In this document: piece by piece, positions 23,573-43,368 of the stretch
How the letters are laid out: every line of letters starts with the position of its first letter
Numbering within the stretch: position 1 is the stretch's first letter
From: Actinomycetota bacterium
GTDB lineage: Bacteria; Actinomycetota; Actinomycetes; S36-B12
DNA length: 47,869 nucleotides
Reading direction: 5' to 3'
Assembly: GCA_947449035.1 (NCBI GenBank)
Contig: CANFQC010000015.1
Location: forward strand, 1-47,869
Translations under genes and position numbers: made by a program
The notes under the pieces: generated by a model
What the model was told of the DNA's origin: nothing
Databases searched by the model: none
Seen by the model: only the letters and a program-made list of their open reading frames with translations

Positions 23573-26182
23573 ATGAGCATTGCAGAACTCCACCCCGGTG
23601 ACCGCGAGCCCTACGACCGTGAGCCCGGGCAGGATCGCACTCCGCCCAATGACATCGCCGCTGAGCAGTCAGTTATCGGCGCCATGCTTTTGTCCAAGGA
23701 CGCCATTGCTGATGTCGTCGAACTCGTGCGCGAGGGCGACTTCTATCGTCCGAATCACCAGATCATCTACGGCACGATTCTCGATCTCTACGGCAAGGGT
23801 GAGCCCGCCGACGCAGTGACCGTTGCCGCTGAGCTCGGCCGCATCGGTGAGCTTTCGCGCATCGGCGGCGCCAATTACTTGCACACCCTCGTCTCGATGG
23901 TGCCCACAGCAGCAAATGCGAACTACTACGGCCGCATCGTGCGCGAGCAGGCGATTCTTCGTCGACTCGTCGAGGCAGGCACGCGCATCGTCAGCATGGG
24001 ATACGGCGGTCAAGGTGATGTTGACGAAATGGTCGATCGTGCGCAGGCCGAGGTCTACGACGTCACTGATCGCCGCACCGCTGAGGATTACGTTCCGCTG
24101 CGCGACATCATGGGTGATGCACTCAATGAGATTGAAGCGATTTCCAATCGCGGTGGCGAGATGGTGGGCGTGCCGACCGGCTTCACCGATCTCGATGCGC
24201 TCACTAACGGTCTTCATCCCGGTCAGCTGATCATTCTTGCTGCGCGTCCTGCTATCGGTAAGGCGCTTGCGCTCGATACCCCAGTGGCGACTCCGACCGG
24301 ATGGTCGACCCAGGGCGACCTGCGCCCTGGCGACTATGTCTTCGGTGCCAATGGCCGACCGACCCGCGTGGTTGCGGTGAGCGAGGTCTGGCGGGATCGA
24401 CCCTGTTTCCGGGTTACCTTCAATGACGGGTCGCAGATCATTGCCGACGCGGAGCACGAGTGGCTCACTGATACGCGAGCCTCTCGCCGCGCAACTCCCT
24501 CTATGAGGGCAGCTGGTCGCACGGTCGGAGCCCAAGCCGAGGTGCGCACGACATCCGAGATCGCGAACTCGGTGCGATGCTCAACCTCTGACAATCGACC
24601 CAACCACAGCGTTCGCATCGCTTCTGCCCTAGAGCTTCCTGCGATTGAGGCACCGATTGCGCCGTATGTTCTCGGCGTGTGGCTGGGCGACGGCACTTCC
24701 GCAGCAGCTCAGTTCACTTCGGCAGATCCGGAGATTGCCTTCCACATAGAAGCCGAGGGATACCTCGCTCCGTACTTTGGGAACATGCGTTACGGCATTC
24801 GTCTCGCTGACGACGTTAGTCGCTCAGAGCGCACCTGCCTGGTGTGCGGTGATCTGTACATGCCGAAGTCACCGGAAGTGCGCACCTGCGGTCGCTCGTG
24901 CGGCGGAAAGCTCACGACGATCGCCGATCCGATCGGTCCCGTGCTCTGTCCTGATTGCGGTGAGCCGACGACGGCTTTTATTCGTTGTGCGACATGCACG
25001 GCTGACCACGGTTCTGTCCAGGCGATCCTGCGCACGATGGGCGTTCTCGGCAATAAACACATCCCGGCCGAATACCTGCGGGCTTCTGTCAGGCAGCGTC
25101 GCGAGTTGCTGGCTGGGCTTCTTGATACCGATGGCACCGTGACATCGACCGGAAGCCCGCAGTTCACCACGACATCGGCGGCATTGGCCGAGGGTGTTCG
25201 CGAACTCGTGCTGAGCCTTGGCTATCGCTGCACAATCTCGACCAAGCGCGTTCGTGGCGCTACTGAGGCCTCGAGCATCGCGTACAACATCAATTTCACC
25301 ACCGATGATCAGGTCTTCCGACTCGAGCGCAAGAACCTTCTGCACAAGGAACGACTCTCAAGCAACGGTGCCGCACGACGCACTCATCGGCTCATCACGA
25401 AGGTCGAACCGGTGAAGTCCGTGCCGGTGCGCTGCATCCAGGTCGACAACGACTCGCACCTCTATCTCGCCGGTCGCGAGATGATCCCGACTCACAACTC
25501 CACCCTAGGTGTGGATATCGCGCGCACCGCGTCGATCAAGCACGGTCTCACCAGCGTCATCTTCTCCCTGGAAATGAGCCGCAACGAAATCGTCATGCGT
25601 CTTCTTTCCGCAGAGGCGCAGGTACCGCTGCATCACATGCGCGCTGGCACGATGAGCGATGCCGACTGGGCGAAGCTCGCGAACAAGATGGGTGTCGTCA
25701 GCGAGGCACCGCTATTCATTGATGATTCGCCGAACATGACCCTCATGGAAATTCGCGCGAAGTGCCGTCGCTTGAAGCAGCGTCACGATCTTCGCCTTGT
25801 TGTGGTCGATTATCTGCAGCTCATGACTTCCGGCAAGAAGGTCGAGAGCCGCCAACAGGAAGTTTCCGAGTTCTCGCGTTCGCTCAAGCTACTTGCCAAG
25901 GAGCTCGAAGTTCCGGTCATCGCAATCTCCCAGCTCAACCGTGGTCCTGAGCAGCGCACCGACAAGCGTCCGATGCTTTCCGACCTTCGTGAGTCAGGCT
26001 CCCTCGAGCAGGACGCCGACATGGTCGTGCTGTTGCATCGCGAGGATGCTTACGAGCGTGAGTCTCCGCGTGCAGGCGAAGCAGACTTCATCGTGGCCAA
26101 GCACCGTAATGGCCCCACGGCAACGGTGACCGTTGCCTTCCAGGGCCATTACTCGCGCTTCGTGGATATGGCGCAGATCTAG
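23573..26182 (+). CDS. dnaB: Replicative DNA helicase DnaB containing an intein
   Basis: 869-residue precursor. Removing the 412-residue intein (231-642) leaves a 457-residue DnaB of normal length. The N-terminal domain is residues 1-150 and the RecA-like helicase domain the rest. The intein splits the Walker A loop between Lys and Ser (RPAIGK / STLG). Walker B is VVVDYLQLM, followed by AISQLNRGPEQR and SDLRESGSLEQDADMV. Without splicing the ATPase loop would be broken, so splicing must be efficient. GGAGGGG lies before the ATG. DnaB unwinds DNA at the fork and works with Ssb, encoded upstream. Confidence 0.97.
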   Translation: MSIAELHPGDREPYDREPGQDRTPPNDIAAEQSVIGAMLLSKDAIADVVELVREGDFYRPNHQIIYGTILDLYGKGEPADAVTVAAELGRIGELSRIGGANYLHTLVSMVPTAANANYYGRIVREQAILRRLVEAGTRIVSMGYGGQGDVDEMVDRAQAEVYDVTDRRTAEDYVPLRDIMGDALNEIEAISNRGGEMVGVPTGFTDLDALTNGLHPGQLIILAARPAIGKALALDTPVATPTGWSTQGDLRPGDYVFGANGRPTRVVAVSEVWRDRPCFRVTFNDGSQIIADAEHEWLTDTRASRRATPSMRAAGRTVGAQAEVRTTSEIANSVRCSTSDNRPNHSVRIASALELPAIEAPIAPYVLGVWLGDGTSAAAQFTSADPEIAFHIEAEGYLAPYFGNMRYGIRLADDVSRSERTCLVCGDLYMPKSPEVRTCGRSCGGKLTTIADPIGPVLCPDCGEPTTAFIRCATCTADHGSVQAILRTMGVLGNKHIPAEYLRASVRQRRELLAGLLDTDGTVTSTGSPQFTTTSAALAEGVRELVLSLGYRCTISTKRVRGATEASSIAYNINFTTDDQVFRLERKNLLHKERLSSNGAARRTHRLITKVEPVKSVPVRCIQVDNDSHLYLAGREMIPTHNSTLGVDIARTASIKHGLTSVIFSLEMSRNEIVMRLLSAEAQVPLHHMRAGTMSDADWAKLANKMGVVSEAPLFIDDSPNMTLMEIRAKCRRLKQRHDLRLVVVDYLQLMTSGKKVESRQQEVSEFSRSLKLLAKELEVPVIAISQLNRGPEQRTDKRPMLSDLRESGSLEQDADMVVLLHREDAYERESPRAGEADFIVAKHRNGPTATVTVAFQGHYSRFVDMAQI
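24263..25498 (+). mobile_element. Class 3-type intein with LAGLIDADG endonuclease in dnaB
   Basis: 412 residues in frame. Residue 1 is Ala instead of the usual Cys/Ser, the intein ends His-Asn and the next residue is Ser. The class 3 triad is visible: Trp67 (block B, EHEW), Cys391 (block F, RCIQVDNDSHLYLAG) and Thr410 (block G, PTHN). In class 3 inteins the block F Cys starts splicing. A homing endonuclease is present with two LAGLIDADG motifs (LGVWLGDGT about 137-145, LLAGLLDTDGT 282-292), both with acidic residues. Between them lies a Cys-rich insert, with Cys192/195/209/213 and Cys229/232/242/245, like two zinc ribbons. Confidence 0.93.
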
Positions 26183-26187
26183 TAGTT

Positions 26188-26817
26188 CTAGTTCGCGCTG
26201 CCGGCTCCGACAAGTTCCTTCTTCGCAGGATCTTCCTTGACCACGCCCACCGGTCGACGCGTCTCGCGCTTGGCGAAATAACCGCGGGGAATCCAGCCGC
26301 GCGCAGTAAGCAGCAGCACAATGATTAACGTCACCGAGGCAATGAGCATGAGCGACGCAGGAACGAGTGCGTCAGTACCCGCCATCACATAGTGAGCTGT
26401 GGCCAGCGGCCAGGCCGCGTAAGCGATCAGGTGCGTGCGGTTGAACCAGGTCGCCCCGGCCTTGCCCATTCGCGCGCGCACTCGTGCCACGAGCTGCACA
26501 GGCACCATGAGGTAGGCGGCGATGATGCCTGCCGCGAGGGCCAGCGGCTTCCATGATGCGGTGAACGGGACGAGGGCATTGACCCACGTGAAGTGCAAAG
26601 TCGGATCAAGGAGAACCGTCACGAGGTGAATGCCCAAGGTCAGGAGCGCCAGTGACCCGAGGTACTTATGCAAACCCATCAGACGCATCGGTGACGCAGC
26701 TGGAAGCAGACGCGTGCGCAGCAGAAGGCCCCACATGATCGTGGCCGACAGCAAGGTCCAGGCCGTGATGCCACTGGCCCGCATCGCGAACCACATCCAG
26801 GGAAGGTTCGACGACAC
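26188..26817 (-). CDS. Ferric-reductase-like transmembrane protein
   Basis: 209 residues with about six membrane helices and several His in helices (HKYLG, GIHLV, THLIAYAAW, TAHYV) that could bind b-type haem, like the FRD/YedZ family. It has no flavin or NADPH domain, so an electron partner is needed. The GTG start overlaps the stop of the upstream 112-residue protein (TAGTG), indicating coupled translation. It might move electrons across the membrane with that partner; substrate unknown. Confidence 0.7.
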   Translation of the reverse strand: MSSNLPWMWFAMRASGITAWTLLSATIMWGLLLRTRLLPAASPMRLMGLHKYLGSLALLTLGIHLVTVLLDPTLHFTWVNALVPFTASWKPLALAAGIIAAYLMVPVQLVARVRARMGKAGATWFNRTHLIAYAAWPLATAHYVMAGTDALVPASLMLIASVTLIIVLLLTARGWIPRGYFAKRETRRPVGVVKEDPAKKELVGAGSAN

Positions 26818-27155
26818 TACGAGCCCTTCGTCTTAGCCTGGGGTGCAGGCGCATTCTGCGCAGGCGCCGTAACGGCTGCCTTCGCGGCCGAGCGCTGCGA
26901 TCCCGAGATCTTCGCGCTCTTGCCGACCTTGGCCTTGTAACTAGCGACCTGGGCGTTATAGCTGGCCTGAGTACCTGCGGCTGCGGTGGTGCTCGACGAG
27001 GAGCTCGAGTTGCCCGTGGCCGAACTGGCTGAGGCGACCTGCGCGGTCTGGAAGGCGAGCAGGCCAGCGATACCGGCCATGGCGCCTACTGCCAGGGCGG
27101 AGGAAACCACCTTGTCCTTGGTGGACGGGCCCTTGGCTCTGCGTGCGGCGCTCAT
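26817..27155 (-). CDS. Small membrane-anchored Ala/Ser-rich protein
   Basis: 112 residues: a basic N-terminus, one hydrophobic segment (about 17-42) that is a signal anchor or signal peptide, a Ser/Thr/Ala-rich stretch (SSSSSSTTAAAG) and a Lys/Ala-rich tail (SYNAQVASYKAKVGKSAKI). GGAGA precedes the ATG. It is coupled to the ferric-reductase-like gene, so the two are probably partners. I do not recognise the family, and no haem or FMN motif is visible. Confidence 0.6.
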   Translation of the reverse strand: MSAARRAKGPSTKDKVVSSALAVGAMAGIAGLLAFQTAQVASASSATGNSSSSSSTTAAAGTQASYNAQVASYKAKVGKSAKISGSQRSAAKAAVTAPAQNAPAPQAKTKGS

Positions 27156-27287
27156 GATCTCTCCTTCGTCTGGCCACCGTGCGTGACCTGTATTGCTCTT
27201 AGGTCAGTTATAGGTCGCCAGCCATTAGGTGAAACCCCAGCGAAGGCTAAGTCCAGGTAAGGAAGTCAGGAATCTCCAGAAGGGTCG

Positions 27288-27629
27288 TTACGGACCCGAT
27301 GGTTCGTTGGGCGTGGGAGGAGGTTGGAATCTACCTGCGTCTCCAAACAACCAAGCAAAAGGTGCATTCGCAGAGGTAACCCCACCGGCCACGAGATCAA
27401 GGTCTTCTTCTGCGAGCTCGCCAGTCGCGTTCATGACGGGGATGACGATGTGCAGGTGGCTGAGTGAATCGCGGTGAACGTCGATAACAAGGCCGGCCGG
27501 GAGCTCGCTTCCGACGAGCTCGGAGATCGCCGCGCGCGGGTTAGCGGTGAGGGTGTCAGCGAAGGAGGAATCGGTTGCGAGGCGATTTCTGATGAGCTGA
27601 TCGAACTCTGCGCGGGATGTTGCAGTCAT
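27288..27629 (-). CDS. NHLP-type RiPP precursor peptide, copy 1
   Basis: 113 residues. The leader (1-83) resembles the nitrile-hydratase-like leader peptide family: FDQLIRNRLATDSSF, NPRAAISELVG, ELPAGLVIDVH, HLHIVIP, then GELAEEDLDLVAGG, ending in the Gly-Gly (82-83) where such leaders are cut. The 30-residue core (27291-27380) has no Cys; it begins VTSANAPFAWLFGDAGRF and ends in a Pro-rich tail. TAGGAG precedes the ATG. It is the last of three tandem copies; leaders are nearly identical, cores differ. No modifying enzyme is nearby, so the product is unknown. Confidence 0.85.
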   Translation of the reverse strand: MTATSRAEFDQLIRNRLATDSSFADTLTANPRAAISELVGSELPAGLVIDVHRDSLSHLHIVIPVMNATGELAEEDLDLVAGGVTSANAPFAWLFGDAGRFQPPPTPNEPSGP

Positions 27630-27679
27630 GGTGTGGCTCCTAGGTGCGCATTTCGGGGCGGAATTGGCTTACGTGGTGA

Positions 27680-28003
27680 TCACGGCAGGGGAGTGGGGTC
27701 GTAGATCGGGTATTGATCTGCGCTGCAACCCACGCACCAAAGATGGGGCGTGCCGCCGCCGGCGACGAGATCAAGGTCGTCATCGGCGAGCTCGCCCGTC
27801 GTGTTCATGACGGGGATGACGATGTGCAGGTGGCTGAGTGATTCGCGGTGAACGTCGATAACAAGGCCGGCCGAGGGTTCGGTGCCGACGAGTTCGGAGA
27901 TGGCTGCATGAGGGTTCGCGGTGAGTGCATCAGCGAAGGAGGGATCGGTTACGAGGCGATCTCTGATCAGCTGATCGAACTCTGCGCGGGATGCGGGCGC
28001 CAT
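27680..28003 (-). CDS. NHLP-type RiPP precursor peptide, copy 2
   Basis: 107 residues. The 83-residue leader differs from copies 1 and 3 at few positions and ends ELADDDLDLVAGG. The 24-residue core (27683-27754) holds two Cys in CVGC (90-93), two Tyr and a tail DPTPLP. The CxxC could form a disulfide, thioether or azoline if an enzyme is present elsewhere. AAGGAG precedes the ATG. The gaps to the neighbouring copies are 50 and 48 bases, so all three are probably on one mRNA. Confidence 0.87.
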   Translation of the reverse strand: MAPASRAEFDQLIRDRLVTDPSFADALTANPHAAISELVGTEPSAGLVIDVHRESLSHLHIVIPVMNTTGELADDDLDLVAGGGTPHLWCVGCSADQYPIYDPTPLP

Positions 28004-28051
28004 GGTGTCTCCTTCAAGTGTGAATCTGGACGTGAAAGTGGATTTGCCGTC

Positions 28052-28381
28052 TTATTGGGGAGGGGTGATCCTCGCCACGTATGCGGCATCACATCCGACT
28101 ATGAAACTAAAACCTTGATCCAAGTTAGTAACTCCGCCGGCGACGAGATCCAGGTCGTCATCGGCGAGTTCGTCATTCGTGTTCATGACGGGGATGACGA
28201 TGTGCAGATGTGCGAGTGATTCGCGGTAAACGTCGATGACAAGGCCGGCCGGTAGTTCGCTGCCGACGAGTTCGGAGATGGCTGCATGAGGGTTCGCGGT
28301 GAGGGCGTCAGCGAAGGAGGGGTCGGTTGCGAGGCGATCACTGATGAGCTGATCGAACTCTGCGCGGGATGTTACGGCCAT
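28052..28381 (-). CDS. NHLP-type RiPP precursor peptide, copy 3 (first transcribed)
   Basis: 109 residues; 83-residue leader ending ELADDDLDLVAGG. The 26-residue core (28055-28132) has one Cys in FIVGCDAAY and ends ITPPQ. AGGAG lies 5 bases before the ATG. As the promoter-proximal copy it should carry the promoter of the cluster. Leader conservation with core change is the pattern of precursor families that share one broad-specificity enzyme, as in cyanobacterial ProcA peptides. Confidence 0.87.
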   Translation of the reverse strand: MAVTSRAEFDQLISDRLATDPSFADALTANPHAAISELVGSELPAGLVIDVYRESLAHLHIVIPVMNTNDELADDDLDLVAGGVTNLDQGFSFIVGCDAAYVARITPPQ

Positions 28382-28409
28382 GGTGACTCCTAGACGTTGA
28401 TGTCTCCAT

Positions 28410-28415
28410 AACGTA
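28410..28415 (-). promoter_or_regulatory. Candidate -10 box for the RiPP precursor cluster
   Basis: TACGTT on the minus strand, about 30 bases before the ATG of copy 3. TAGGCA, 17 bases further upstream, matches the -35 consensus at 4 of 6 positions. Weak evidence. Confidence 0.3.
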
Positions 28416-28515
28416 ACAACGGGATGAGAAATTGCCTACACAGAAGTTCTACAAGAAGGCACCTCGTTGCAATGGCTGATGGAATGCACACTTCGTTCAC
28501 TTTCCTTGGGGCCTG

Positions 28516-28521
28516 TACTCT
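28516..28521 (+). promoter_or_regulatory. Candidate -10 box upstream of the P-loop kinase gene
   Basis: TACTCT followed by 6 bases and a GTG at 28528. Transcription starting there would give a 26-base leader containing AAGG for the ATG at 28554. It could also give a leaderless 9-codon peptide whose TGA overlaps that ATG. Confidence 0.4.
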
Positions 28522-28553
28522 CGCCTCGTGATTCCTAGTGAAGGTGGCATGCG

Positions 28554-29183
28554 ATGACGCCCATTGATCAGACACTCGATCAGCTCGTCGAACGCGCCCG
28601 CTCCCTTGCAGTTCCGGGAACGCGCACCATCCTCGGCATCACTGGTGCGCCAGGGGCCGGAAAGTCGACGGCCTCGGAAGCGCTGTTGGCTGGGCTTGGC
28701 GATCTCGCGGTGCTCGTACCCATGGATGGCTACCACCTGGCGAATGAAGTGCTGCTTAATCTTGGCCGCCGCGATCGCAAGGGGGCACCCGACACCTTCG
28801 ATGCGGCCGGTTACGTCGCCCTACTCGAGCGGCTGCGCGATCAGAGCGATGAGGTGGTCTACGCCCCCCGCTTCCTGCGAGAAATCGAGGAGCCCCTCGC
28901 AAACTCGATCGCCGTGCACCGGTCAACCCCGCTGATCATCACGGAGGGCAACTACCTGCTCGTCAACGATGGTGATTTCGCCCGTGTGCGCCCGCTGATT
29001 GATGAGGCATGGTTCCTGGTGCCCGACGATGCTGTGCGCCAGGAGCGTCTCATCGCGCGGCACGTGGCGTATGGCAAGGATCCCGAAGCAGCACGCGCGT
29101 GGGCGCTGGGCACCGATGAAGCCAATGCACGCCTCGTTGCGGCGACGGCAGAGCATGCCGATCACGTGATTCGCGTCATCTGA
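28554..29183 (+). CDS. P-loop nucleoside/sugar kinase of the uridine kinase-like family (YggC type)
   Basis: 209 residues. Walker A is GAPGAGKST (about 32-40), then the family motifs PMDGYHLAN and RKGAPDTFDAAGY, which set substrate binding, and EGNYLL near residue 130. The family phosphorylates small molecules (uridine, pantothenate, sugars); the substrate is not clear. Divergent from the RiPP precursors across 172 bases and convergent with a lipoprotein gene. I see no specific link to the RiPP genes. Confidence 0.85.
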   Translation: MTPIDQTLDQLVERARSLAVPGTRTILGITGAPGAGKSTASEALLAGLGDLAVLVPMDGYHLANEVLLNLGRRDRKGAPDTFDAAGYVALLERLRDQSDEVVYAPRFLREIEEPLANSIAVHRSTPLIITEGNYLLVNDGDFARVRPLIDEAWFLVPDDAVRQERLIARHVAYGKDPEAARAWALGTDEANARLVAATAEHADHVIRVI

Positions 29184-35607: not shown

Positions 35608-37014
35608 ATGGGCGCGCTAGATCTCGCACGCTGGCAATTTGCCATCACCACCGTCTATCACTTCCTATTCGTGCCGCTCACCCTCGGAACCGTCTGGTTC
35701 GTTGCGGGATTCCAGACGGCCTACTTCCGCACAGGCAAGGAGAAGTACCTCAAGCTCACGAAGTTCTTCGGGAAGCTCTTCCTGATCAACTTCGCGATGG
35801 GCGTGGTCACTGGCATCGTCCAGGAATTCCAGTTCGGCATGAACTGGTCCGAGTACTCGCGATTCGTCGGAGACGTCTTCGGCGCCCCGCTCGCCATGGA
35901 GGGCCTGCTCGCCTTCTTCCTCGAGTCGACGTTCATCGGTCTGTGGATCTTCGGCTGGGATCGACTTCCGAAGAAGGTGCATCTCGCGACGATCTGGGCA
36001 GCCGCAGTCGGCACCATGCTTTCGGCTTACTTCATCCTTGCCGCTAACGCATGGATGCAGCATCCGGTCGGCTACGAGATCAGCGCCACCACCGGTCGTG
36101 CTGTTCTGAACAACATCGGCCTCGTGCTGTTCCAGAACACCGCTGTCATCGCCTTCTTCCACACCATTTCTGCCTCTTTCCTGGTGGCAGGTTCGGGCGT
36201 CGCTGCCATCGGTGCGTGGATGCTCATGAAGGATCGCCAAGTCGACATCTTCCGCCCTGCGGTCAAGATCGGTGCGGTCGTCGTCCTTCTGTCAGCCGTG
36301 GTCGTCTCGATCACTGGTGATATGGACGCCAAGATCATGGTCAAACAGCAGCCCATGAAGATGGCTGCAGCCGAAGCTCTGTACAACACCACTGACAAGG
36401 CACCGTTCTCGATCCTCAGCATCGGCGACGTCTCAGGCTCGAGTGCAACTCCGGTGATCGAGGTTCCCGGCCTTACGTCGTTCATGGCTACTGGTTCCTT
36501 CGACGGCAACGTGCAGGGCATCAATGACCTTCAGGCCCAGTACGAGCAGACCTACGGTCCGGGCAATTACGCGCCGTACGTGCCGGTCAGTTACTGGGGC
36601 TTCCGCCTGATGATCGGTCTCGGCCTGATCGCCGCAGCATGGGCGCTGTGGGCGCTGTGGCGCTACCGCGGCGGCCGTAACCCTAAAGGCAAGTTCTTCA
36701 ACGTGATCAGCATGTTCATCACGCTCGGACCCCTTGTGGGTATCTCGGCAGGCTGGATCTTCACGGAGATGGGGCGTCAGCCGTGGATTGTGTTCGGCCA
36801 GCAGAAGACAGCAGATGCGGTGTCACCTCTTGTTTCGCCCGCTGAGGTCTGGATCTCCATGATCGGCTTCACGCTGGTGTACCTCGTGCTGGCCATCATC
36901 GAACTGCGCCTGCTTCTGCGCTACATCCGTGCGGGTGCTCCGGAGAACGTCATTGAGGACCCATATGACGACTCCAAGAACGATGCCGACAAGCAGCTCT
37001 ACTTCGCGTACTGA
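35608..37014 (+). CDS. cydA: Cytochrome bd oxidase subunit I
   Basis: 468-residue membrane subunit of the quinol:oxygen oxidoreductase that carries the haems. His18 (YHFLFVPLT) fits the haem b595 ligand position; the GLLAFFLESTFIGLW helix carries the conserved Glu. The region SYWGFRLMIGLG holds the likely Met ligand of b558. The Q-loop is short. AAGGG precedes the ATG. First gene of cydABDC; the DosR-like box upstream suggests induction at low oxygen or by NO. Confidence 0.97.
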   Translation: MGALDLARWQFAITTVYHFLFVPLTLGTVWFVAGFQTAYFRTGKEKYLKLTKFFGKLFLINFAMGVVTGIVQEFQFGMNWSEYSRFVGDVFGAPLAMEGLLAFFLESTFIGLWIFGWDRLPKKVHLATIWAAAVGTMLSAYFILAANAWMQHPVGYEISATTGRAVLNNIGLVLFQNTAVIAFFHTISASFLVAGSGVAAIGAWMLMKDRQVDIFRPAVKIGAVVVLLSAVVVSITGDMDAKIMVKQQPMKMAAAEALYNTTDKAPFSILSIGDVSGSSATPVIEVPGLTSFMATGSFDGNVQGINDLQAQYEQTYGPGNYAPYVPVSYWGFRLMIGLGLIAAAWALWALWRYRGGRNPKGKFFNVISMFITLGPLVGISAGWIFTEMGRQPWIVFGQQKTADAVSPLVSPAEVWISMIGFTLVYLVLAIIELRLLLRYIRAGAPENVIEDPYDDSKNDADKQLYFAY

Positions 37015-37035
37015 TCGAAAGACGAGGAATAGCTC

Positions 37036-38130
37036 ATGGAACTCGTAACTGTCTGGTTCATCCTGATCGCCGTACTGTGGATCGGATACCTCGTACTCGA
37101 CGGCTTCGACCTGGGTGTCGGAATGCTCCTGCCGTTTATCGGCAAGGACGACCTGCGCCGTCGAGTGATGATCAACACGATCGGCCCGGTATGGGACGGA
37201 AATGAGGTCTGGCTGCTTGTCGCAGGCGGTGCAACCTTCGCGGCGTTCCCGCTCTGGTACGCCACGCTCTTCAGCGGCTTCTACCTCGCACTCTTCCTGC
37301 TTCTTCTTGCACTGATCTTGCGCGGCGTTGCATTCGAGTACCGCAGCAAGCACGACTCAGTGAAGTGGCGGGCAGGCTGGGACAAGGCAATTTTCGTGGG
37401 GTCAGTTCTGCCACCTCTGCTGCTCGGCGTTGCCTTTGGCAACATCTTCGGCGGATCGAAAATCGGTCCGATCGCCGGGACCCCTGTTGACTTCCCGCTT
37501 GCCACTGACGCGGGGCCAATCAATTACCTGGGTAGCTTCTTCGACCTTTTGCTCAACCCCTTTGCCCTCGTCATCGGCGTCATGCTCGTGCTTGTCTTCG
37601 CCACTCACGGTGCGATCTTCCTGGCGCTCAAGACAAGCGGCGAGGTGCGCGAAGCCTCGCGTAAGGCAGCAGTGAAGGTGGGTGTCGCAGCCGCCGTCTT
37701 CGCGGTGGTCGGCCTGCTGTGGGCTCAGGCGTACTCCGGTCGAGTCGCGATCACGCTTCCGATCGTGCTGATTGCCGCGGTGCTCTGGCTCGCAGGCATC
37801 GGCATGACGCTCAAGGGACGCGACGGGTGGGCCTTCTTGTTCAGTGCCGGGACAATCGCTCTTGCTGTCACGGCATTGTTCGTGGGCGCTTTCCCGAACA
37901 TCATGCTCAGCAGCATTGATTCGGCCTTCAATCTCACGGTGCACAACTCGGCGAGCCAGTCGTACACGCTGACGGTGATGACCATCGTCGCGGTGATCAT
38001 GACCCCGATCGTGTTGATATACCAGGGCTGGACATATTGGGTCTTCCGCAAGCGCATCAGCACCGCGCAGATCCCGGCGCAATCAGCACCAGGCCGCGCG
38101 GATGATCGATTCGCACCAGCAAAGAGCTGA
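37036..38130 (+). CDS. cydB: Cytochrome bd oxidase subunit II
   Basis: 364 residues, about eight to nine membrane helices. The family start WFILIAVLWIGYLVLDGFDLGVG and PVWDGNEVWLLVAGG are typical. It pairs with CydA in the membrane. 21 bases after cydA, with GAGGAA before the ATG. The C-terminal tail is short and polar. Confidence 0.97.
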   Translation: MELVTVWFILIAVLWIGYLVLDGFDLGVGMLLPFIGKDDLRRRVMINTIGPVWDGNEVWLLVAGGATFAAFPLWYATLFSGFYLALFLLLLALILRGVAFEYRSKHDSVKWRAGWDKAIFVGSVLPPLLLGVAFGNIFGGSKIGPIAGTPVDFPLATDAGPINYLGSFFDLLLNPFALVIGVMLVLVFATHGAIFLALKTSGEVREASRKAAVKVGVAAAVFAVVGLLWAQAYSGRVAITLPIVLIAAVLWLAGIGMTLKGRDGWAFLFSAGTIALAVTALFVGAFPNIMLSSIDSAFNLTVHNSASQSYTLTVMTIVAVIMTPIVLIYQGWTYWVFRKRISTAQIPAQSAPGRADDRFAPAKS

Positions 38131-38152
38131 TCGAGAGTTCACAGCGCGTGCT

Positions 38153-38181
38153 CAGGCGAACGGGTCCCACTCGTTCGCCTG
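38153..38181 (+). terminator. Hairpin between cydB and cydD
   Basis: 10-bp stem CAGGCGAACG/CGTTCGCCTG with a 9-base loop in the 79-base spacer. No U-tract, so it may only reduce read-through or set the oxidase-to-transporter ratio. Confidence 0.6.
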
Positions 38182-38209
38182 ATCTCGTGTTCAAGGGGAG
38201 AATGACCAC

Positions 38210-39877
38210 GTGAGACCACTTGATCCGCGACTGATGCGGTACGCCCGCAGTACTCGTGGATTCATGATCGTGGCGATCCTTCTCGGAGTTGTCACGGCAA
38301 TTCTGGTCATCCTGCAAGCGCGGGCCCTCTCGACCGTCATCGTGAACGTCACTGCCCATGGATTCAACTTCGCCGAAGTAGGCGGACTCGTGTTCGCGGT
38401 AGCAGCCTTGATAGGTGCACGCGCACTTCTTGCCTGGGCCACTGAGATCGCGGCTTTTCGATCATCAGCGGCGGTGAAGGAGGAACTACGCACAGCGGCC
38501 CTCGCACACGCCCTCGCGCTTGGGCCTAATGGTCCAGCCGGAACCGATCCGGCGGGTGTCACAACGCTTGTTACGCGTGGCGTCGACGCCCTTGATGCCT
38601 ACTTCTCGCGTTATCTGCCGCAGTTAGTGCTCGCGGTCATCGTGCCCATCGCGATTCTGCTCACCATGCTCGGCCAGGACATCTTGTCGACGGTGATCGT
38701 GGCCATCACGATCCCCCTGATCCCGCTCTTCATGATCTTGATCGGCATGTACACCAAGAGCAGAGTCGATCGGCAGTGGAAAACCCTTGCGGTGCTCAGC
38801 GGTCACTTCCTGGATCTAGTCGCAGGCCTACCCACACTCAAGATCTTCGGACGTGCCAAGTCGCAGGCCGAGGCGATTGCTGCGGTCGGTGATCGATATC
38901 GAATGTCGACGATGGGCGTGCTGCGAATCTCATTCCTCTCCTCCCTCGCCCTGGAACTACTTGCGACCCTCTCTGTCGCCCTCGTCGCGGTTTCCGTAGG
39001 TCTACGCCTGGCCGAGGGGCAGATCGCTTACGGCATTGCCCTTTTCGTGCTCCTGCTGGCACCCGAGGCGTATCTGCCGCTCCGGCTTGTCGGCCAGCAC
39101 TTCCATGCAGCAGCGGAAGGGCTCGGTGCTGCCGAGCGGATCTTTGCCATCCTCGAGACACCGCTTCCCACGAGCGGCACCTCGGAGATGCCCGAGGGTT
39201 CGGTAACCATCGATGTCGACCATCTGGGTTATACGTATGCGGGATCTGAGGTTCCCGCACTCGCCCCCACGACCTTCACGGCACGTCCGGGCACTATCAC
39301 GGCGCTGGTCGGTCTTTCGGGTGGCGGGAAGTCAACCCTGGTCAATGTGCTTCTTGGTTTCCTCGCCCCCACGATGGGCGAAGTGCGAGTAAGCGAATGC
39401 CCTCTCGCCGACATCAGCACCGCTGTCTGGCGTTCGAGCATCGGTTGGGTGCCCCAGTCGCCTGTCCTCGTGTCGGCTGACCTCAACGTGAATCCGACCA
39501 TCGCGCAGGTTGTGCGAGTGGGCATGTCCGATGCCACCGATGATCACGTTCGGCGAGCACTGTCTGATGCAGGCATCCTCGATGAGGTCATGGCCCTCCC
39601 ACTCGGGATAGATACCGCATTGAATGCTGACGGAAGCGGCCTCTCCCGAGGACAGCAGCAGCGCATCGCGATAGCTCGTGCCTTAGTGCGCGAACCACGT
39701 GTTCTGGTGCTCGATGAGCCAAGCGCGGCGCTGGATATCGACTCCGAGGATGCAGTAGTCGCCGCAGTACGCGAAGCCGCGTCACGTGGATGCACCGTGA
39801 TCGTAGTCGCCCACCGGCCGGCACTTGTCGAGATCGCAGATCAGGTCGTGCGCGTCGGTACTGAGGTCCTCGCATGA
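38210..39877 (+). CDS. cydD: CydD, ABC exporter subunit for cytochrome bd assembly
   Basis: 555 residues: a six-helix membrane domain (about 15-300) and an ATPase domain with Walker A GLSGGGKST (about 365), signature LSRGQQQR and Walker B VLVLDEPSAALD. CydDC exports cysteine/glutathione-type reductants and is needed to assemble the bd oxidase; an actinobacterium would use mycothiol, so the cargo is uncertain. GGGGAG precedes the GTG. Overlaps cydC by 4 bases. Confidence 0.93.
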   Translation: MRPLDPRLMRYARSTRGFMIVAILLGVVTAILVILQARALSTVIVNVTAHGFNFAEVGGLVFAVAALIGARALLAWATEIAAFRSSAAVKEELRTAALAHALALGPNGPAGTDPAGVTTLVTRGVDALDAYFSRYLPQLVLAVIVPIAILLTMLGQDILSTVIVAITIPLIPLFMILIGMYTKSRVDRQWKTLAVLSGHFLDLVAGLPTLKIFGRAKSQAEAIAAVGDRYRMSTMGVLRISFLSSLALELLATLSVALVAVSVGLRLAEGQIAYGIALFVLLLAPEAYLPLRLVGQHFHAAAEGLGAAERIFAILETPLPTSGTSEMPEGSVTIDVDHLGYTYAGSEVPALAPTTFTARPGTITALVGLSGGGKSTLVNVLLGFLAPTMGEVRVSECPLADISTAVWRSSIGWVPQSPVLVSADLNVNPTIAQVVRVGMSDATDDHVRRALSDAGILDEVMALPLGIDTALNADGSGLSRGQQQRIAIARALVREPRVLVLDEPSAALDIDSEDAVVAAVREAASRGCTVIVVAHRPALVEIADQVVRVGTEVLA

Positions 39878-41664
39878 GCCCGGTCAGAGCACTGTGGAAG
39901 GCGATGTCAGCGCAACGTTCTGAACTCGCGATCGCGGCCCTCATCGGATTCCTCGCATCGGCCTGCGCCATCGCGCTACTCGGGACCTCAGCGTGGTTGA
40001 TCTCCCGAGCTGCGGACATGCCTCCGGTTCTCACCCTGAGCGTCGCCGCGGTCATGGTGCGAGCCTTCGCACTGGGTCGCGCAGTGTTCCGTTACCTGGA
40101 GCGTTTGCTCGGGCACGACGCTGCCTTCCGCGGTCTCTCGCAACTTCGAGTGAGCCTGTACGCAAGTCTCGAGGCCATTACCCCGAATGGACTTGCACGA
40201 TTCACTCGAGGTGATCTCCTTGCGCGCCTCGGTGCCGACGTCGACACCGCAGTGGATCTGCCGTTGCGCATCGTGCTGCCTTGGGCGCAGGCAATCCTCG
40301 TGTCGATCGGGACGATCGCCTTCCTCGTCTGGCTCCTGCCGGCGGCCGGTGTCGTAATCGGCATCATCGTCCTGCTTGCCCTGACCCTCATGCCCTGGCT
40401 TGTCGGTCGTACGGCGGCGCAGGCGGAGGCCCGACTCGCACCGGGCAAGGCAGCGTTGGCGAATGCTGCTCTCACGTCGCTGAGCGCCTCGCCTGACCTG
40501 CTGATGCTTGGTGCCGATGGGCGAGCGTTAGCAGCGTTGCGAAGTCATGACGACAAGGTCACTGTTCTCGGACGACGCGAATCATTCGCTCTCGGTCTGA
40601 GCGGAGGCACGGGCACGTTACTTCAGGGTCTCGCCATCATCGCGGCACTCGTCATAGCAATTCCGGCAGTAGTCGATGGCCGTCTCCCCTCTGTCATGCT
40701 CGCCGTGGCCGCGCTACTGCCGCTCGCTCTCTTCGATGTGCTGGCAACCCTCCCGGGTTCAGCGCTCTCCTTTCACCGACTTCGCGGTGCTGCCGCTCGC
40801 CTGGATGAGATCCATGCAGCATCGGTAGATGATGGCGCATCGCCGCTGGTCCAACCAGGTGCGTTCACCGGCCTGGTGGTCGACAACGTGCGGGCTCGAT
40901 GGTCCGGAGCACAATCGGACGCCCTAGCCGGTGTGTCGATTCGTATCACTCCAGGTGAACGCATTGCGATCGTCGGCCCCAGTGGCTCAGGCAAGTCAAC
41001 CCTGGCCACTGTGCTCATGGGATTCCTCAACTACCAGGGCGGCGCAGTCATCTGTGGTCACGAGATTCGTGCGATTGGCGGTGACGAACTGCGCGAGCGC
41101 GTAGGACTCATGGAGCAGAGTTCGCACATCTTCGACACGACCATTGCAGCGAATCTGCGACTCGGCCGTCTGGGCTCATCGGATGACGAAATCTGGACAG
41201 CACTGGAAGAAGCACAGCTCGCTGATTGGGTGCGCACCTTGCCCCTCGGAATCGAGACGGAGGTCGGGTCATTTGGCACCAGGCTTTCGGGTGGTCAGCA
41301 GCAGCGACTCGCCCTGGCACGGCTGCTGCTCGCGCAACGTGACCTCGTGATCCTCGACGAACCGACGGAGCATCTGGATGCGCAGACTGCTGAGCAGCTC
41401 GACCGCACATTGATCTCCGCCACGGCCTCGCGTACGGCCATCTTGATCACTCACCGACTCATCGGTCTTGAATCAACAGATCGAATTTACGTGCTCGATC
41501 ATGGCCGGGTTGTCGAGCACGGCACGCATGATGAACTGATGAGCGGCACCGGCTGGTACGCCACGAACCGGCGCCGTCAGGCAGAGCAGCGCAGCATGGC
41601 GGAATTGATTGACCGTCTTCCCGCTGGAATTGGTGTTGATGTGCCGCCTCTCGCGAGAGGATGA
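39874..41664 (+). CDS. cydC: CydC, ABC exporter subunit for cytochrome bd assembly
   Basis: 596 residues, partner of CydD. Membrane domain (about 15-300) with SAWLISRAADMPPVL typical of CydC; ATPase domain with GPSGSGKST, LSGGQQQR and LVILDEPTEHLD. The end extends about 40 residues past the ATPase fold. Only 3 bases separate its stop from the sensor kinase start, so kinase and transporter are co-translated. Confidence 0.93.
   Translation: MSPVRALWKAMSAQRSELAIAALIGFLASACAIALLGTSAWLISRAADMPPVLTLSVAAVMVRAFALGRAVFRYLERLLGHDAAFRGLSQLRVSLYASLEAITPNGLARFTRGDLLARLGADVDTAVDLPLRIVLPWAQAILVSIGTIAFLVWLLPAAGVVIGIIVLLALTLMPWLVGRTAAQAEARLAPGKAALANAALTSLSASPDLLMLGADGRALAALRSHDDKVTVLGRRESFALGLSGGTGTLLQGLAIIAALVIAIPAVVDGRLPSVMLAVAALLPLALFDVLATLPGSALSFHRLRGAAARLDEIHAASVDDGASPLVQPGAFTGLVVDNVRARWSGAQSDALAGVSIRITPGERIAIVGPSGSGKSTLATVLMGFLNYQGGAVICGHEIRAIGGDELRERVGLMEQSSHIFDTTIAANLRLGRLGSSDDEIWTALEEAQLADWVRTLPLGIETEVGSFGTRLSGGQQQRLALARLLLAQRDLVILDEPTEHLDAQTAEQLDRTLISATASRTAILITHRLIGLESTDRIYVLDHGRVVEHGTHDELMSGTGWYATNRRRQAEQRSMAELIDRLPAGIGVDVPPLARG

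Positions 41665-43368
<1,704 letters not shown>

Follow-up and report, generated by a model that had tools for sequence, protein, structure and literature searches.

Three tandem NHLP-type precursor genes in an actinobacterial draft genome without a recognised maturation or export system

A freshwater-type actinobacterium carries three adjacent genes for modified-peptide precursors in a nearly complete draft genome that reveals no recognised maturation or export gene. The window, which is the whole stretch of DNA analysed here, comprises 47,869 nucleotides (contig CANFQC010000015.1 of assembly GCA_947449035.1). The three open reading frames lie on its minus strand, begin with ATG and follow one another 5' to 3' in the order 109, 107 and 113 amino acids. 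The first gene (28052..28381, minus strand) encodes a leader at residues 1-83 and the tail VTNLDQGFSFIVGCDAAYVARITPPQ. It is followed by the second (27680..28003, minus strand), with a leader of the same extent and the tail GTPHLWCVGCSADQYPIYDPTPLP, and by the third (27288..27629, minus strand), where residues 1-83 precede the tail VTSANAPFAWLFGDAGRFQPPPTPNEPSGP. After the Gly-Gly pair that closes the leader, 26, 24 and 30 residues remain, respectively, and the predicted cores contain one, two and no Cys. The genes are separated by 48 and 50 bases, with a GGAG-type ribosome-binding site at the end of each gap. No promoter or terminator dedicated to the array emerged from a consensus scan, a method of little weight in this phylum. 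A previous sequence-only reading of this DNA had already reported three tandem frames of 113, 107 and 109 codons, a spacing of 48-50 bases and tails of 30, 24 and 26 residues. All of these figures are confirmed, and the strand, which it did not state, is added here.

The leader connects these proteins to a known family. The NHLP leader profile TIGR03793, composed of 77 positions, aligns to residues 6-83 in each copy and stops exactly at the Gly-Gly (residue 83). In transcription order, the three proteins are matched with E-values of 4e-14, 1.2e-10 and 5.2e-14 and with scores of 52.2, 41.1 and 51.9 bits. The curated cut-off of 50.9 bits is therefore passed by two of the three copies; the middle one falls below it, yet its match is significant. 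The NHLP-type leader suggested by the sequence-only reading, which had proposed this very profile as a check, is thus borne out. The three copies also constitute a paralogous group, one of the few in the window (BLASTP E 4e-46 to 3e-49), and this paralogy, together with the profile matches, excludes a chance resemblance. The array is accordingly described as three predicted proteusin-type (NHLP-leader) RiPP precursors, which are new members of a known family. A relationship to the alpha subunit of nitrile hydratase was considered and rejected, as it produced weak matches only and the Gly-Gly leader model is far better. When the PDB was searched with a profile of related leaders, the best matches were the proteusin leaders 9CJX and 8TB1 (E 7e-12 and 1e-8), nitrile hydratase alpha coming after these. 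The same two structures head the Foldseek results (best E 0.014) for a low-confidence AlphaFold model (mean pLDDT 55.8) that places helices within residues 6-39 and strands within residues 50-63.

The 83-residue leaders can be aligned without gaps and are identical in all three copies at 63 of 83 columns, pairwise identities reaching 82-87% for the proteins and 85.5-89.2% for the DNA. Between copies, dN amounts to 0.08-0.09 versus a dS of 0.24-0.41, and the resulting pairwise dN/dS of 0.23-0.32 shows that the leader is under purifying selection. The tails barely align at the DNA level, the observed scores being reached by 1, 9 and 27 of 300 shuffles. This combination of a conserved leader and a divergent tail, correctly perceived from the letters alone, is the usual pattern of RiPP precursors. 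To call the leader almost invariant was nevertheless somewhat strong in view of these identities, and the segment LPAGLVIDV, presented as common to the leaders, is found in two copies, the middle one having PSAGLVIDV. An L(X)4L motif, L72-(X)4-L77, is kept in all three copies. The three copies form a single clade with a support of 100/99, and duplication within this lineage is therefore the simplest origin of the array.

The array is located on an accessory island. Alignment of the window with the corresponding locus (L104) of the same-genus genome G002, by blastn and global alignment, delimits a segment of 1,303 bp at 27263..28565, with edges accurate to some tens of bases. Both flanks are syntenic in G002, where 74 bp occupy the interval between the positions matching window 27262 and 28566. 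The two neighbouring genes lie outside the island. The left one (26817..27155, minus strand) encodes a small protein rich in Ala and Ser, with a hydrophobic stretch at its N-terminus, and is found at the same place in G002. The right one (28554..29183, plus strand) is divergently transcribed and encodes a P-loop kinase similar to uridine kinase/phosphoribulokinase, 92% identical in G002. The other same-genus genome, G001, gives no match to an NHLP leader. With an empty site in one genome and no leader match in the other, the array comes and goes within the genus, either by gain in this genome or by loss in G002. The island edges share no direct repeat of at least 8 bases and present a single 8-base inverted repeat. 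Insertion of a mobile element was rejected on account of the missing direct repeat, and phage or plasmid cargo was rejected as well, with no relative in viral contigs and one distant Tistrella match only among plasmids.

Two other regions of the window deserve mention. The gene of the DnaB replicative helicase (23573-26182, plus strand) contains an in-frame intein-like insert at about 24263-25495 with a LAGLIDADG homing endonuclease, and this insert is absent from the DnaB of G002. The genes for cytochrome bd oxidase, cydAB-cydDC, form an ordinary set that extends, together with a downstream GAF/histidine kinase gene, over 35608-43368 (plus strand).

The host assembly is a draft of 2,358,139 bases (2.36 Mb) in 87 contigs, 97.7% complete. 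It was searched for named families of maturation and export proteins, namely Peptidase_C39, LANC_like, YcaO, radical SAM and ABC exporters. At E<=10, the host genome contains no match to Peptidase_C39 (PF03412), for which 8 of 14 control genomes were positive, and none to LANC_like. YcaO gives one fragment with an E-value of 0.075, below the cut-off. Nine radical SAM domain matches lie above the cut-off and all belong to housekeeping proteins (MoaA, MiaB, HemW, the TIGR03960 protein, CofGH twice, RimO, RlmN and LipA), and the cognate radical SAM profile A3, used for a SPASM-type maturase, matches nothing in this genome. Five ABC exporters are recognised by ABC_membrane: the window encodes CydD and CydC, contig C23 two MsbA-like proteins and contig C28 a third. 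None of them reaches the NHLM cut-offs. A C39-less NHLM exporter (TIGR03797) was also rejected, the host exporters scoring far below its cut-off. Nothing resembling a RiPP enzyme appears among 10 proteins examined around the array, nor among 10 located further out, in agreement with the earlier description of the genes as orphans in the window. The other part of that description, a single shared enzyme with a C39-type exporter, finds no counterpart in the draft genome: the search it had suggested for LanM, YcaO, radical SAM and C39 transporter genes recognised no such system, which is half of what it had named as speaking against itself.

The nature of the expected machinery can be approached through the relatives of these leaders. 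Only five other genomes among 166 of the order carry leaders close to those of the window (E <= 1e-6). In a scan of public genomes, a three-row alignment (A1) returned no relatives and a broader 17-row alignment returned 12 loci. Three leader copies are found beside YcaO, a sulfotransferase, DUF2332 and a radical SAM enzyme in G123, beside YcaO and a sulfotransferase in G087, and beside a radical SAM enzyme and DUF2332 in G071. In a gammaproteobacterial MAG (L105), a leader 55% identical is accompanied by a row of SPASM radical SAM, DUF2332, sulfotransferase-like and squalene-hopene-cyclase-like genes, the DUF2332 and sulfotransferase homologues being recognised by their likeness to locus L067 and not by profile. 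The radical SAM enzyme of these relatives possesses a SPASM domain and reaches none of the curated equivalog cut-offs. In G031, G041 and G045, NHLP genes of more distant kinship are near NHLM exporter genes. The kinship with ribosomal modified peptides, as claimed from the sequence, is supported by these RiPP clusters. Since the nearest leaders lie beside YcaO/radical SAM genes, the leader lineage of the window belongs with the YcaO/radical-SAM proteusins. Most cores of the relatives have C-W or W at their start and contain Cys, and the C-W-x-x-C-like pattern usual among them is absent from all three window tails; because of this absence, and of the one tail devoid of Cys, the chemistry may differ from that of the relatives. 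Within the genus, C39 is present in G001 and G002, and YcaO in G001. The absence of machinery is nevertheless recurrent: G009, also 96% complete, contains orphan leaders that belong to the same broad clade, and it too shows no YcaO, C39 or cognate radical SAM.

The best explanation, to which a probability of about one half is given, is that these genes encode precursors of a YcaO/radical-SAM proteusin pathway. As neither an enzyme of this kind nor a C39 exporter is present in the assembly, the cognate machinery would most likely sit in an unassembled or unbinned part of the genome, be carried by other members of the population, or have been lost recently. Tandem duplication within the lineage would have produced three precursors, each probably translated from its own ribosome-binding site, with a leader that may fold into a small helical/beta domain. 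A YcaO-type enzyme would bind the C-terminal L72-(X)4-L77 of this leader through its leader-binding domain and would then modify the short tail; a SPASM radical SAM enzyme may act as well, and a cut after the Gly-Gly would free the product. This explanation is favoured by the selection on the leader, the preserved docking motif and the machinery of sister genomes, and is weakened by the near completeness of the assembly and by the equally orphan G009.

Comparison with the MprE1-E10 precursors (PMC12455567; PDB 8TB1) is instructive with respect to docking. Their L(X)4L motif is required for the processing of MprE7 by the YcaO MprC (PMC12455567), and it is matched in place, at L70/L75 in MprE and L72/L77 here, in leaders of about 81-83 residues; the window leader is homologous to the solved 8TB1 chain. 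The difference is that the MprE proteins come with MprC, a YcaO, and MprD, an oxidase, whereas the host genome here has no detected YcaO and the cores are Cys-poor. A similar relation holds for the TIGR03793 NHLP/proteusin family at large, with which the array shares the leader profile, the Gly-Gly end and tandem copies with hypervariable cores, a trait already known for NHLP precursors (PMC4603692), but not a detected C39 NHLM exporter, LanC-like protein or YcaO, adjacent or genome-wide. In 2010, Haft et al. had already described species that carry NHLP genes but lack maturation enzymes (PMC2887384). The lack of machinery is thus unusual, not unprecedented, and to speak of an undescribed peptide system, as had been done, was too strong. 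The closest leaders obtained by profile scans are those of the clusters L067, L069, L072 and L105 (36-55% identical, with tandem triplets in three genomes), which differ from the array in having precursors beside their own enzymes. In prochlorosin-type systems, many unlinked precursors depend on one enzyme. They share with the array precursors apart from any enzyme, a conserved leader and varied cores (PMC10783134); LanM is present in those genomes, whereas no LANC_like match was found in the genome under study.

Two additional NHLP-like genes bring the host total to five NHLP-type genes on three contigs. The first, on contig C8 (L026:9111-9386), encodes an orphan precursor of 91 aa with the tail YNWTTPNHACAD, lies above the TIGR03793 cut-off and stands beside genes for an MmpL-type transporter and a phosphatase-like protein. 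The second, on contig C30 between rpoC and rpsL, is a distant and weakly matching gene of 101 aa whose leader ends in SGG, followed by a short tail with one Cys. No recognisable maturation enzyme is near either gene. The C30 gene adjoins (L027:8002-9114) a protein of 249-aa length that neither Pfam nor NCBIfam recognises. Homologues of this protein (35-36% identity) adjoin NHLP-like genes in G052:C5 (L045) and G003:C14 (L037), and gene and neighbour are possibly a new precursor-enzyme pair.

These five genes in a nearly complete genome, the company of the C30 copy, the purifying selection on the leader and the same orphan pattern in G009 all argue for the strongest of the rival readings, according to which other kinds of enzymes mature the precursors, e.g. 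an acyltransferase, MNIO, ATP-grasp, LanB-like protein or sulfotransferase, or else a maturase not yet recognised, while release depends on a protease that stands alone and on an exporter of general use. This is a minority possibility, since neither the window array nor the C8 copy has a candidate enzyme close by, the 249-aa protein accompanies a distant leader of another type, and the nearest leaders elsewhere sit in conventional YcaO/radical SAM clusters. It is likewise unlikely that maturation and release proceed in this lineage without YcaO, LanM, radical SAM maturase and C39, through enzymes and proteases of kinds new to NHLP leaders, or that the products are unmodified two-part proteins.

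The next reading in rank considers the genes as relics that linger under relaxed selection after the loss of their maturation cluster. The machinery absent from the host assembly, the two same-genus genomes without an NHLP leader match, one with an empty site, and the tails diverged past clear alignment are all consistent with it. It is rather improbable, as the three reading frames are uninterrupted and have ribosome-binding sites, the leader has been constrained between copies and has kept its docking motif, and a divergent tail behind a conserved leader is normal in working precursors. Last in rank and very doubtful is the idea that the leader-like domain itself is the functional protein, e.g. 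a regulator or binding protein of small size and folded structure, with a minor, uncut and unmodified tail. In its favour, NHLP leaders are stably folded (PMC12455567), no maturation enzymes were found in the host genome, and antibiotic activity in Pseudomonas is influenced by Os1348, a small NHLP-clan protein that forms a dimer in its crystals (PMC7726476). Against it, the switch from conservation to divergence is sharp and falls exactly at the Gly-Gly; Os1348, for its part, has candidate modification genes next to it, and the authors who described it interpret it as a precursor (PMC7726476).

RiPP leaders that are conserved and duplicated are clearly present here in a nearly complete genome that shows no recognised maturation or export gene, and a second related genome is alike. 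If closed genomes confirm this situation, it offers a test of whether NHLP leaders can work without known enzymes. For new chemistry, better targets than the window are the clusters of the relatives, which bring together YcaO, DUF2332, a sulfotransferase and the SPASM radical SAM enzyme that passes no curated cut-off. At L105:8001-13740, L067, L069, L072 and L088, NHLP precursors are combined in varying ways with SagD-type YcaO, SPASM radical SAM, DUF2332, sulfotransferase, squalene-hopene-cyclase-like and PhyH dioxygenase genes, and these clusters occur in actinobacterial and gammaproteobacterial MAGs.
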